A stretch of DNA of 11,989 nucleotides from contig JAITHF010000005.1 of NCBI GenBank assembly GCA_031280115.1, positions 1 to 11,989 on the forward strand, in the 5' to 3' direction. A program made the position numbers and the translations under genes. This stretch comes from Spirochaetaceae bacterium (GTDB lineage Bacteria > Spirochaetota > Spirochaetia > Treponematales > Breznakiellaceae). Below the pieces are notes generated by a model. The model worked only from the letters and a program-made list of their open reading frames with translations, was not told the DNA's origin and did no database searches. Positions 1 to 11,989 of this stretch are shown here, one piece after another (position 1 is the stretch's first letter; each line of letters starts with the position of its first letter).

Positions 1-260
1 TCCTGCGTTGCGCCGCTCACGCCATCGAAGTCCGCTGAGGCGCCGCTTGTGGGTTGTGACTAAAATTGCAAACCCTATCGCAACAAGAAGCACGTGAATC
101 CCCCGCAGGGGGCAAACCCTATCGCAACAAGAAGCACGTGAATCCCCCGCAGGGGGCAAACCCTATCGCAACAAGAAGCACGTGAATCCCCCGCAGGGGG
201 CAAACCCGCTCGCCGCAAGAAGCACGTGAAACCCCCTACGGGGGCAGCCTCCGGCTGCCT
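1..260. repeat. Island E1: right arm of a hairpin-rich repeat island (cut by the window start)
   Basis: Positions 1-60 match the module-b linker found in the right arms of E2 (about 4914-4972) and E4 (about 11850-11910): a core like TCCTGCGTTGCGCC, then GCCATCGAA, then CCGCTGAGGCGCC and GGGTTGTGACTAAA. Tandem module-a units follow from 68, then a CAGCC-TCC-GGCTG hairpin at 245-257. The rest of the island lies left of the window. I see no gene in this stretch. It ends about 30 bp before the promoter of the CBS-domain gene, so it could act as an upstream insulator or terminator, but that is inference. Confidence 0.8.
68..243. repeat. Four tandem 44-bp units (module a)
   Basis: Units start at 68, 112, 156 and 200, each exactly 44 bp. 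Each begins GCAAACCC, contains GAAGCACGTGAA, and ends in a C5/G5 hairpin (100-112, 144-156, 188-200, 232-244). The first three are essentially identical, which indicates recent tandem duplication. The fourth has diverged (GCTCGCCGC replaces TATCGCAAC) and its hairpin loop is TAC, not GCA. The same unit occurs singly or in pairs in the other islands. There are no unique spacers, so it is not a CRISPR array. Confidence 0.93.
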
Positions 261-4030: not shown

Positions 4031-4215
4031 CAACCCCCATAGGGGGATTCAGGTGCTTCCTGCGGTGAGCGGGTCTGCGGGTTTAGTCACAACCCAGAAG
4101 CGGCGCCTCACCGCGCTTCGATAGCGCACGGGCGCGAAACAGGTAGCCGTTGGCTGGGGGTTTGGGGGAACTGGTTCCCCCAAATTCTCTTAAAAAGCGC
4201 AAGCGAAGCGCAGCG
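4031..4215. repeat. E2 left arm (modules a-b-c)
   Basis: Module a has a CCCCC-ATA-GGGGG hairpin (4034-4046), then GTGCTTCCTGCGGTGAGCGGG and GTTTAGTCAC. Module b spans about 4085-4135. Module c begins with hp1: GGGGGAAC-TG-GTTCCCCC at 4164-4181, extended by TTT/AAA to an 11-bp stem. It then has CTCTTAAAAAG and a GCGC-rich stem. The arm matches the left arm of E4 almost module for module. Confidence 0.85.
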
Positions 4216-4459
4216 CATAAAAAAACGCAGGGCGGTTGAAAAACTGTGAGAGGGGTAGTATTGTTGTGTTATTATGATGAAACGTAGTAGTATCGCGTTC
4301 CCGTTAGGGCGCAGTGTGGCCGAAAACGGCAAACGAAATTGTATAGTATATATGAGTTTATCAAGCCCCTTCCGCCTGAATCCTGCCCTTCTTTAACCTG
4401 TTTTCCCCTCTTTTTTCAGGTCTTTTTCCCGACAGGCCAGCGGGTACACACGGTGCCGC
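4216..4459. other. E2 interior without gene or obvious repeat
   Basis: This stretch of about 240 bp separates the left arm from the minisatellite. It is less GC-rich than its flanks, with a small GCCG-AAAA-CGGC hairpin near 4319-4330 and an AT-rich patch TATAGTATATATG near 4342-4354. It lacks the AT palindrome and GGGGACAGG leader seen in E3 and E4. I see no convincing coding region, tRNA or promoter pair in it. Confidence 0.5.
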
Positions 4460-4692
4460 AGGGGGTAATCTTTCCGCGTTAGAGGGGCGCATCTTTGCCC
4501 CGCGGGGGCATCTCCGCGTTGCGCGGATACATCTCCGCGCTGCGCGGATACATCTCCGCGTTGCGCGGATACATCTCCGCGCCGTGCGGATACATCTCCG
4601 CGCCGTGCGGATACCTCCCCGCGCCGCACGGATACATCTCCGCGTTGCGCGGATACATCCCCGCGTTGCGCGGATACTTCTCCGCGCCGTGA
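4460..4692. repeat. E2 minisatellite: 21-bp units with CGCGGA/TCCGCG dyads
   Basis: GGATAC recurs at 4525, 4546, 4567, 4588, 4609, 4630, 4651 and 4672, an exact 21-bp spacing. Increasingly degenerate units extend left to about 4460. Each unit holds the arms CGCGGA and TCCGCG, which can pair in two registers: across TACATC within a unit, or across a 3-nt loop (TTG, CTG or CCG) between units. Because 21 is a multiple of 3, several frames stay open and give artificial heptapeptide-repeat ORFs on both strands. Confidence 0.93.
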
Positions 4693-4970
4693 AAGCCCCT
4701 CTCTGTTCGGTTATGAGCGCTGCGCTGCGCTTGCGCTTTTATAATGCAATTTGGGGGCTTTTTTACCGGCGCTTCTTGTTTCGCGTATTCTTTTGCAAAC
4801 TTCGCGTAAGGGAACAGCCTCCGGCTGCCGGCGCTTCTTGTTTCGCGGCTCATAGCGCAAACGGCGGCTGCTGAAACAGCCTCCGGCTGCCCCCAAACCC
4901 CCAACCAACGGCTTCCTGCGTTACGCTACTGACGCTATCGAATTCCGCTGAGGCGCATCCTTCTGGGTTG

Positions 4971-5102
4971 TGACTAAAATTGCAAACCCTATCGCCGCAG
5001 GAAGCACTTAAAACAGCCTACGGCTGCCGCAGGGGGTGACTAAAATTGCAAACCCTCCCGCCGCAGGAAGCACTTAAAACAGCCTACGGCTGCCGCAGGG
5101 GG
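4971..5102. repeat. Tandem duplication of a 66-bp module-a unit
   Basis: Copies at 4971-5036 and 5037-5102 begin TGACTAAAATTGCAAACCC and end GCCGCAGGGGG. Each carries a CAGCC-TAC-GGCTG hairpin (5014-5026 and 5080-5092). They are nearly identical, differing around ATCG/CCCG in the middle. The second copy contains the last codons and stop of the acyl-CoA synthetase gene. Confidence 0.93.
5073..5092 (-). terminator. Candidate intrinsic terminator of the acyl-CoA synthetase transcript, supplied by the repeat
   Basis: Read on the minus strand, CAGCC-GTA-GGCTG is followed at once by TTTTAAG. That is a short GC-rich hairpin plus a brief U-run, with the TAG stop of the gene in its loop and arm. The U-run is only four bases, so efficiency is uncertain. 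The second module-a copy repeats the same structure 66 bp further on. Confidence 0.45.
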
Positions 5103-8431: not shown

Positions 8432-8737
8432 CCCCCTGCGCAGCCGAAGGCTGTTTTAAGTGCTTCTCGCGGTGAGAGGGTTTGCGGTTTTAGTCACCCC
8501 CTGCGGGGGATTCAGGTGCTTCTAGTAGCGAGAGGGTTCGCACGTTTAGTCATAACCCCGAAGGATGCGCCTCAGCGGGCTTCGATAACGCACGGGCGCA
8601 CCGCAGGAAGCCGTTGGTTGGGGGTTTGGGGGCAGCCGCAGGCTGTTTCAGCAGTCGCCGTTTGCGCTATGAGCCGCGAAACATGAAGCGCTGATAAAAA
8701 AACCCCCCAAATTCTCTTAAAGAGGCGCGCAGCGCCG
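8432..8737. repeat. E3 left arm (two module a, then b and c)
   Basis: The first module a has a CAGCC-GAA-GGCTG hairpin (8441-8453) followed by TTTTAAG. The second has CCCCC-TGC-GGGGG (8497-8509). Module b spans about 8555-8610. The hp1 stem TTTGGGGG (8625-8632) pairs with CCCCCAAA (8704-8711) around a 71-nt apex. That apex includes CAGCC-GCA-GGCTG and GTTTGCGCTATGAGCCGCG, also found inverted in the E2 right arm. Confidence 0.82.
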
Positions 8738-8764
8738 ATAAATCATTATATACTAATGATTTAT
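8738..8764. repeat. AT-rich 27-nt palindrome before the E3 minisatellite
   Basis: ATAAATCATTA and TAATGATTTAT form perfect 11-bp arms around TATAC. A palindrome of the same length and the same outer arms occurs at 11553-11579 in E4, in the same position relative to the minisatellite leader. It could be a protein-binding site or a hairpin. Confidence 0.85.
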
Positions 8765-8766
8765 AT

Positions 8767-9012
8767 GGGGACAGGATAGTTTATTTTGGATACAAAATAA
8801 GTTTTCTTGGATACAAAATAAGTTTCTTTGGATACAAAATAAAGTTTCTTGGATACAAAATAAGTTTCTTTGGATACAAAATAAGTTTCTTTGGATACAA
8901 AATAAAGTTTCTTGGATACAAAATAAGTTTTCTTGGATACAAAATAAGTTTTCTTGGATACAAAATAAGTTTTCTTGGATACAAAATAAGTCACTTTGGA
9001 ACCCAAAAAACG
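8767..9012. repeat. E3 minisatellite: ten 21-bp AT-rich units
   Basis: GGATACAAAATAA recurs at 8788, 8809, 8830, 8851, 8872, 8893, 8914, 8935, 8956 and 8977, always 21 bp apart, with variation confined to the TTTTCTT/TTTCTTT/AGTTTCTT part. A degenerate unit begins at 8998. The leader 8767-8787 (GGGGACAGGATAGTTT...) is itself a degenerate first unit in phase. The sequence is AT-rich, in sharp contrast to the GC-rich surroundings. Confidence 0.95.
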
Positions 9013-11345: not shown

Positions 11346-11375
11346 ATAATACTACGCCCTCCCGCCTAAACACAA
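11346..11375 (-). promoter_or_regulatory. Possible putP promoter at the E4 edge
   Basis: On the minus strand a TATTAT -10-like box (11346-11351) lies 18 bp downstream of TTGTGT (11370-11375), a poor -35 match formed by the outermost bases of island E4. The -10 region sits in the only AT-rich patch upstream of putP. This is suggestive only. Confidence 0.3.
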
Positions 11376-11552
11376 CCCCCGAAGGGGGTTCACGTGCTTC
11401 CTGCGGTGAGCGGGTTTGCACGTTTAGTCACAACCCCGAAGCGGCGCCTCATCGCGCTTCGATGGCGTTAGTGGCGCTGCACACGTCGCACTGGTTGGGG
11501 GTTTGGGGGAACTGGTTCCCCCAAAAACTCTTAAAAGAGGCGCGAAGCGCCG
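11370..11552. repeat. E4 left arm (modules a-b-c)
   Basis: Module a has a CCCCC-GAA-GGGGG hairpin (11376-11388) and GTTTAGTCACAACCC. Module b has CGCCTCATCGCGCTTCGATGG. In module c, hp1 is GGGGGAAC-TG-GTTCCCCC (11505-11522), followed by CTCTTAAAAGAG and GGCGC-GAA-GCGCC. So three hairpins in succession lead into the AT palindrome. Confidence 0.87.
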
Positions 11553-11579
11553 ATAAATCATTATAACACAATGATTTAT
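11553..11579. repeat. AT-rich 27-nt palindrome before the E4 minisatellite
   Basis: ATAAATCATT and AATGATTTAT form 10-bp arms around ATAACAC. Total length and outer arms are the same as at 8738-8764, but the loop differs. Confidence 0.85.
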
Positions 11580-11581
11580 GC

Positions 11582-11746
11582 GGGGACAGGATAGTTTTTC
11601 CGGTTCACCGGGGAACTTTTCCGGTTCACCGGGGAACTTATCCGGTTCACCGGAGAACTTGTCCGGTTCACCGGAGAACTTGTCCGGTTCACCGGAGAAC
11701 TTGTCCGGTTCACCGGAGAACTTGTCCGGTTCACCGGAAAAACCGG
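11582..11746. repeat. E4 minisatellite: seven 21-bp units with CCGG dyads
   Basis: CCGGTTCACCGG starts at 11600, 11621, 11642, 11663, 11684, 11705 and 11726, exactly 21 bp apart. Each unit contains CCGG-TTCA-CCGG and a GTTC/GAAC pair. The leader GGGGACAGGATAGTTT (11582-11597) is identical to that of E3. The open frames through it are a consequence of the 21-bp period. Confidence 0.95.
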
Positions 11747-11759
11747 TGTTCCTGCCATG

Positions 11760-11989
11760 CTTTGTTATAATATTAAAAATTACCGGCGCTTCGCGCCTCT
11801 TGAAGAGTTTTTGGAGGGTCATAGACCCTCCAAACCACCCACTAAGGCTTCCTGCGTTGCGCCGCTCACGCCATCGAATTCCGCTTTGGCGCAGTGTGAG
11901 GGTTGTGACTAAACCCGCAAACCCGCTCGCCGCAAGAAGCACGTGAATCCCCCGCAGGGGGTGAAACAGCCGCAGGCTGGGGGGTGGCG
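11760..11989. repeat. E4 right arm (inverted modules c-b-a)
   Basis: GGCGC-TTC-GCGCC (about 11784-11796) and CTCTTGAAGAG are followed by hp1, here GGAGGGTC-ATA-GACCCTCC (11813-11831). Module b then follows (about 11850-11910), and module a with CCCCC-GCA-GGGGG (11949-11961). The hp1 stem sequence differs from the left arm while pairing is kept. Confidence 0.87.

Follow-up and report, generated by a model that had tools for sequence, protein, structure and literature searches.

Tandem arrays at the centre of composite intergenic islands in a Spirochaetaceae bacterium keep an exact 21-bp pitch and a dyad within most of their units although the letters of the units change, and both properties are common to unrelated repeats elsewhere. 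This is the most notable feature of the islands, and it was missed by the initial annotation of the window analysed here, a whole contig of 11,989 bases from a draft genome of 1,844,453 bases (301 contigs, 62% complete; hereafter the source genome). In the source genome the islands are dispersed and follow a common order of modules, and the arrays are locked in register to one of these modules, contain an excess of dyads and show no codon constraint. We tentatively interpret the islands as complete or partial copies of a non-autonomous repeat that is dispersed and has long inverted arms, and whose core would be a pitch-locked dyad satellite acting at the DNA level, and propose a mechanism for its upkeep.

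Composite islands in the window and the source genome

The initial annotation described four islands in the window that shared the order module a, module b, hairpin run and minisatellite. This order was recovered at 4031-5102 (E2), 8432-9012 (E3) and 11370-11989 (E4), all with 21-bp arrays, and not at 1-260 (E1), which has no 21-bp array (Table 1). E1 is a fragment cut by the end of the contig: positions 1-112 match 11850-11961 at 88% and correspond to inverted modules b'-a', after which a 44-bp a-type repeat is present in 3.8 copies (68-236). The inverted modules that had been placed on the far side of E2 and E4 were found as arms of 64 nt in E2 (4037-4100 and 4960-5023, 80% complementary) and 193 nt in E4 (11373-11565 and 11771-11963, 73% complementary). 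Judged by eye, the array and hairpins of E2 form a subclass unlike that of E3 and E4.

Table 1 Features of the four islands in the window
Feature	Position	Strand	Basis
E1: inverted b' (~1-51), a' (~52-112) and 44-bp tandem a-type repeats (68-236)	1..253	-	repeat comparison
E2 module a	4033..4090	+	repeat families D6, D10
E2 module b	4091..4168	+	repeat family D7; region aligned in other copies
E2 hairpin TTTGGGGGAACTGGTTCCCCCAAA	4161..4184	+	joint change of three pairs in 9 of 23 aligned copies
E2 second hairpin run, of a subclass other than E3/E4 module c	4195..4217	+	by eye
E2 21-bp array, 8.5 copies	4509..4687	.	tandem-repeat search
E2 module d, present as two direct copies of 62 bp that are 76% alike	4766..4889	-	family D14
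E2 inverted module b'	4890..4965	-	family D12
E2 inverted a', two 66-bp copies; covers the stop codon of the AMP-binding gene, whose end is at 5084	4970..5101	-	
E3 module a, two copies	8439..8553	+	family D6
E3 module b	8567..8632	+	family D7
E3 module d, in place of the short hairpin loop of other copies	8633..8702	+	pairs I2, I8; by-eye comparison
E3 module c; the array takes its register from the conserved dyad at the end of this module	8703..8782	+	family D11
E3 21-bp array, 10.1 copies, dyad TTG-GATA-CAA	8778..8991	.	
E4 module a	11373..11431	+	family D6
E4 module b	11432..11509	+	family D7
E4 module c: GGCGC-GAA-GCGCC hairpin and ATAAATCATTATA / ATGATTTAT stem	11518..11597	+	
E4 21-bp array, 6.7 copies, dyad CCGG-TTCA-CCGG	11599..11738	.	
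E4 inverted arm c'-b'-a'	11771..11963	-	pair I1

The genes of the window that could be named with Pfam are ordinary (a CNNM/CorC-type membrane protein, MoeA, an M29-like peptidase, an AMP-binding enzyme, an HTH-cupin regulator, DAHP synthase, 5-formyltetrahydrofolate cyclo-ligase and a sodium-solute symporter) and, as initially annotated, include no transposase; the two ORFs that run through islands had no Pfam match. A search of the window against Rfam 15 returned no match above the gathering score. Within the window, a generic promoter scan gave 9 matches (4.5, sd 1.7, in shuffles) and a terminator scan 25 (16.0, sd 3.8, in shuffles). A TTGATA...TACAAT pair was seen by eye on the minus strand of E2 (~4338-4364), its 15-nt spacer lying beyond the range of the promoter scan, and the AMP-binding gene takes its final residues and its stop codon from the inverted a' repeat of E2 (5084-5101).

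Searching the source genome with the modules recovered many further copies: at least 54 matches to a module a/b probe (4031-4240; 40 of 499 candidates scored, E down to 1e-67), at least 48 to an inverted-end probe (40 of 496 scored) and at least 46 to a module c probe (40 of 345 scored). The family put forward from the window, composite islands with inverted arms and minisatellite centres, is genome-wide and intergenic. From module and array matches in 105 stretches of the source genome, 176 islands were assembled, for which the usual order on either strand is a b c, array, c' b' a', complete or partial; the order list leaves out 57 of the 176 that touch the end of a stretch. Exceptions were repeated a b units, arrays without modules (26/176) and c c' pairs adjoining an array. 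In one module hairpin the whole loop is swapped among copies; in E3, compared by eye, ~70 nt of module d take its place. Five of the 58 genomes searched gave a match, namely the source genome, three of five congeners (G002, G003 and G005) and one order-level genome, whose 29-base match is probably due to chance; none of the 29 genomes from other genera of the family (G006-G034) matched. Congener G003 also carries a dispersed repeat of its own (L118, L119, L114) with GCCTGTTGTTTCC...GTGCAACACCC, by eye unlike modules a-c.

The sites of two islands were compared by eye between congeners. At the E3 site, upstream of the DAHP synthase gene, no module was seen in G001, G002 (~370 nt only), G004 or G005; an unrelated 21-bp array is present there in G001, and the G003 contig stops at the site. 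At the E2 site, downstream of the AMP-binding gene, no island was seen in ~390-700 nt of each of the same four genomes, and the G003 contig ends in other repeats. Gene order differs between the congeners, so neither a clean empty site nor a target duplication could be read. Dispersed, nested and unseen at two congener neighbourhoods, the arms fit best with the behaviour of a dispersed non-autonomous element, which was the first of three roles originally suggested for the islands. Structured RNA, the second, drew slight support, and for the modules only, the arrays showing no G-U strand asymmetry; the third, a chromosome-organising site, could still apply.

MITEs and other non-autonomous dispersed repeats are dispersed and non-coding, with inverted arms and nested copies. 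The islands resemble MITEs in being dispersed and nested, in their inverted terminal arms (a-b-c / c'-b'-a') and in that no coding capacity was found; they differ in that many are partial and that no autonomous partner was found, Y1 being the one transposase family searched.

Membership in a REP/REPIN family mobilised by a RAYT (REP-associated tyrosine transposase) appears quite improbable. Like the REP, REPIN and BIME sequences described in PMC3733652 and PMC8266576, the islands are high-copy extragenic palindromes that are inverted or clustered and whose stems vary with pairing kept; their short palindromes have alternative stems, and the source genome contains one RAYT-like Y1 transposase gene. 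They differ from these sequences in their ~200-nt arms, their pitch-locked 21-bp centre and the rarity of the GTAG or CGTC tag at hairpin feet, which was found within 8 nt of module hairpins in at most 8/250, 8/378, 0/59 and 3/310 occurrences (both strands). Moreover, no module match was seen at the two Y1 genes examined, neither in the 3.3-kb locus of the G003 gene (78% identical) nor, in the source genome, on the one side of the gene that is uncut by the contig end. Y1 matches number 8 in congener G001 and 16 in G004, neither of which gave a module match; the single module match of G002 is unaccompanied by any to Y1. REP membership was rejected on the GTAG/CGTC tag, and an association with the transposase was not supported; PMC3733652 records RAYT genes that have other repeats beside them. 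By eye, the ORFs next to the source-genome Y1 gene (L189:1444-1917; matched part C283:9532-9831) are trp-like and the contig ends soon after, and the G003 homologue (L342) lies in a different gene context.

Pitch, register and symmetry of the arrays

All three arrays of the window have period 21. Among 85 stretches around module matches, the window contig included (339,476 bp), this period accounted for 110 of 271 tandem-repeat rows, and it made up 17 of 44 rows in 20 contigs picked by number and not by content (108,656 bp; C10, C19 and C21 are omitted from the number range). In the 20 contigs, rows of period 21, 42 and 63 merge into 15 arrays, or ~138 per Mb. Because arrays break the contigs of the drafts that make up almost all of the genome set, unit counts are lower bounds.

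The conserved dyad at the end of module c, CTG-GGGA-CAG, acts as unit zero for 74 following arrays: perfect 4-bp dyads lie at +21, +42 and +63 in 0.32, 0.50 and 0.50 of these arrays, whereas the remaining offsets between 8 and 63 average 0.009. When dyads repeated three in a row were binned by pitch, the 20 numbered contigs gave 15 bins at 21 and 7 at 42, with at most one at any other pitch between 13 and 45. Across 448,132 bp of the source genome, pitch 21 had 99 bins, pitch 42 had 62 and pitch 22 had 3, with no remaining pitch in that range exceeding one. An origin of the unit as three degenerate heptamers was rejected, identity at offset 7 being below that of shuffles, and the arrays have no hidden 7-bp period. 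The arrays share with known period-7 intergenic repeats an intergenic location, sequence diversity and one favoured period; here, in contrast, the period is 21, there is no internal 7-bp repeat and the units are dyads. Nor are they CRISPR arrays, as the units run head-to-tail with no spacers between them. A second array class (L043, L047, L053, L058, L060, L107, L109, L110) has units with TGAGTCA or GACTCA and is bordered by a conserved flank peculiar to it, CAGACTTTTCTGTCTGC..., through which the reading frame looked open by eye.

Array units differ completely from one another yet are mostly dyads (TTTTG-N4-CAAAA, CCGG-N4-CCGG, CGCG-N4-CGCG and others), the typical unit having a stem of ~4-8 bp and usually a centre of ~4 nt. 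At least four of five stem pairs were formed in 65 of 79 source-genome arrays, compared with 31.7 (sd 4.2) after per-unit shuffling, the expectation being taken as the maximum over phase; a per-pair covariation test against shuffled partners was set aside, since its phase had been picked for the greatest pairing. Among 73 distinct units of the source genome, 5-bp stems surrounded a 2-nt centre in 20 and a 4-nt centre in 17 (under 3 expected), and centres of 0, 5 and 3 nt in 11, 10 and 8 (~3 expected; 2.9 each for 0 and 2 nt), with no excess at 1 nt (4). Centre sizes of 7 and 9 repeat those of 4 and 2, because the same dyads are then viewed from the far side.

Centres of 0 and 2 nt cannot be hairpin loops and suit a symmetry at the duplex level, such as that of a bound dimer. 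In a protein-binding scaffold modelled on partition centromeres, iterons or nucleoid-organising sites, each unit would serve a dimeric DNA-binding protein as its dyad operator, the 21-bp spacing placing all dimers on one face of the helix for cooperative binding. The exact two-turn pitch and the register lock agree with this, as do the stem excesses of the source genome, which are largest at the even centre sizes 2 and 4 nt and extend to 0 nt, the TTG arms in 288 of the 459 dyads scored in its arrays, and the lack of preference for G-T over A-C at stems. However, arms vary among the arrays of one genome (TTG/CAA, GCG/CGC, CGG/CCG) and among genera, so that no one specific protein can read all of them, and on balance we consider such a scaffold rather unlikely. 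Plasmid iteron and partition-site arrays are likewise helically phased repeated sites, from which the present arrays differ in being many, dispersed and of differing sequence within one genome, with no known partner gene.

A structured RNA, in which transcribed islands would fold into strings of hairpins, is improbable to a greater degree. Stem positions held 64 G-T against 93 A-C in distinct units, and 17 against 29 when counted by array; since G-T is not favoured, there is no sign of RNA wobble, or of one transcribed strand carrying the symmetry, in the direction from c to array. The covariation term is also small (-1.95 of -44.55 kcal/mol), and the Rfam search of the window was empty. The modules are more favourable to an RNA: in one hairpin, three pairs are exchanged jointly in 9 of 23 copies (Table 1), and three module c pairs change from A-U to G-U in 11, 6 and 3 of 23 copies, so that pairing is kept only in RNA read toward the array, although these changes may represent few inherited events.

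Coding potential, gene context and occurrence in other genomes

As 21 bp equal seven codons, heptad-repeat coding sequences were considered, and array sequences did contain more open frames than shuffles (471/630 against 409, sd 9.6), an excess that may stem from the shuffle not preserving dinucleotides. Further in favour of heptads, some arrays lie inside ORFs of >900 nt in other treponemes (3/24) and other phyla (9/80 merged arrays), shorter ORFs overlapping an array having been discarded before the location count. Against them, 0 of 74 merged source-genome arrays do so, the module c that adjoins the array tolerates single-base indels, and the 105 arrays of the treponeme set have no synonymous bias, with 317 best-frame synonymous changes against 317.9 (sd 8.3) expected from column shuffling. 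The null column-shuffle test and the intergenic location led us to reject coding heptads for the treponeme arrays, and as a general account of the 21-bp arrays they are extremely improbable. A first synonymous test (308 against 204 expected) lost its signal once the choice of the best of six frames was allowed for, and an earlier stop count that seemed to favour one frame was explained by palindromes of shared ancestry. The cross-phylum set (77 arrays) has a mild excess of synonymous changes, 206 against 190 (sd 7.2), which suggests that some of those arrays are probably coding. Of seven cross-phylum loci inspected for ORF layout, two (Evansella L310, Flavobacterium L315) have an array clear of ORFs of at least 100 aa; at the other five (L256, L260, L274, L286, L327) the array shares sequence with an ORF of 104-277 aa.

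The location counts and the gene orientations rest on simple ORF calls and not on a trained gene finder. With respect to gene orientation, 25 source-genome arrays had a called gene on both sides and were placeable, 49 of 74 being without one on one side. These 25 occupied 7 divergent, 4 convergent and 14 tandem gaps, compared with 12, 11 and 26 array-free gaps, and show no marked preference. The corresponding divergent, convergent and tandem counts were 0/2/8 for array gaps against 17/19/55 for array-free gaps in other treponemes, and 6/9/17 against 28/9/41 in other phyla. Outside the source genome, arrays thus seem to avoid divergent gaps, and they might be avoiding promoter regions.

Four TTG-N4-CAA dyads at 21-bp pitch were found in 10 of 195 family genomes, with 308 overlapping matches in the source genome and 84 in the other nine. 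The reversed control AAC-N4-GTT, itself palindromic, gave 7 matches in the source genome and 109 elsewhere in the family, and four non-palindromic arm pairs gave 19, 2, 8 and 11 in the source genome and 23, 4, 16 and 22 elsewhere. Palindromic arms are several-fold commoner than non-palindromic ones in the treponeme family, in counts where matches within one array are not independent. After TTG-N4-CAA units were removed, 4-bp stems with a 4-nt centre remained in 14 of 42 distinct units from outside the source genome (4.2, sd 1.9, expected), with weaker excesses at other centre sizes.

Period 21 also occurred in stretches of G003, G061, G086, G122 and G001, some of those from the first four genomes having been picked for module or pattern matches. 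Across the family, 31 first-contig stretches (three of them from congeners) yielded 49 rows, of which 5 had period 21, forming no peak and being no commoner than 12, 15 or 23; these stretches contained 21-bp arrays of at least three units in G008, G010 and G030 and 22-23-bp arrays in G013 and G029. No 21-bp array was present in 40 kb of G032 (a single contig of 3,855,671 bases). Dyad repeats of other treponemes peaked at 21 (27 bins) and also fell at 20, 41 and 43 (3, 3 and 4 bins). In G061, which belongs to another genus, two 21-bp arrays are very long (L176:3286-4600 and 17573-19022; 62.6 and 69 copies), and a further array at L176 (9167-9746) carries what is nearly the reverse complement of one unit. 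An exception to the 21-bp rule is a 23-bp palindromic array of G029 (L233:4382-4622), GGCCCATACCATGCTATGGGGGT.

Among public species genomes, five TTG...CAA dyads at 21-bp pitch were found in at least 89 stretches, and the phyla among the matches listed, assigned from record titles, were Bacteroidota, Planctomycetota, Cyanobacteria, Spirochaetota, Verrucomicrobiota, Acidobacteriota, Bacillota, Pseudomonadota, Campylobacterota and others. Forty of the cross-phylum genomes had 2-50 pattern matches each, positive by construction; the cross-phylum palindrome excess rests on 15 pattern-less arrays in those loci (dyad score 5.67 against 4.89, sd 0.18), and the non-palindromic arm controls cover the treponeme family only. 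The same spacing with other letters in other bacteria indicates that spacing seems to be kept where sequence is not. By title or abstract, no description of 21-bp intergenic dyad arrays was found among the open-licence papers listed, which is weak evidence of novelty.

Candidate processes behind the 21-bp pitch

A purely mutational process alone does not explain a period of 21 rather than 10, 11, 31 or 32. With less than even confidence, we prefer an amplification at the DNA level, acting on fold-back units spaced by two helical turns, to the scaffold of bound dimers. Under such amplification, arrays would grow and shrink at the DNA level, slipped intermediates would be stabilised by units that fold on themselves as single strands, and same-face duplex sites two helical turns (21 bp) apart would be the preferred partners for slippage or template switching. 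Any self-complementary 21-bp sequence could become a unit, with local homogenisation within each array, and the arms might spread by recombination or through an unseen transposase. The under-use of divergent gaps outside the source genome is something that a neutral process need not produce, and the 0- and 2-nt centres and the relatives in which period 21 does not dominate likewise weigh against this mechanism.

Tandem repeats normally inherit their period together with their sequence. Here, period and intra-unit symmetry persist although the letters become wholly different, both within a genome and between genera, which implies that something measures 21 bp and symmetry and not a motif. It is conceivable, if somewhat unlikely, that the arrays belong to a class defined by geometry only: sequence-independent intergenic satellites of dyads at an exact 21-bp (two-turn) pitch, present in many phyla, hugely expanded in some spirochaetes and kept by a process that measures pitch. 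Their upkeep would then fall to a cooperative DNA-coating protein with a relaxed sequence preference or to a dedicated amplification mechanism. Overall, the persistence of pitch and symmetry makes testable why certain periods dominate bacterial intergenic repeats.
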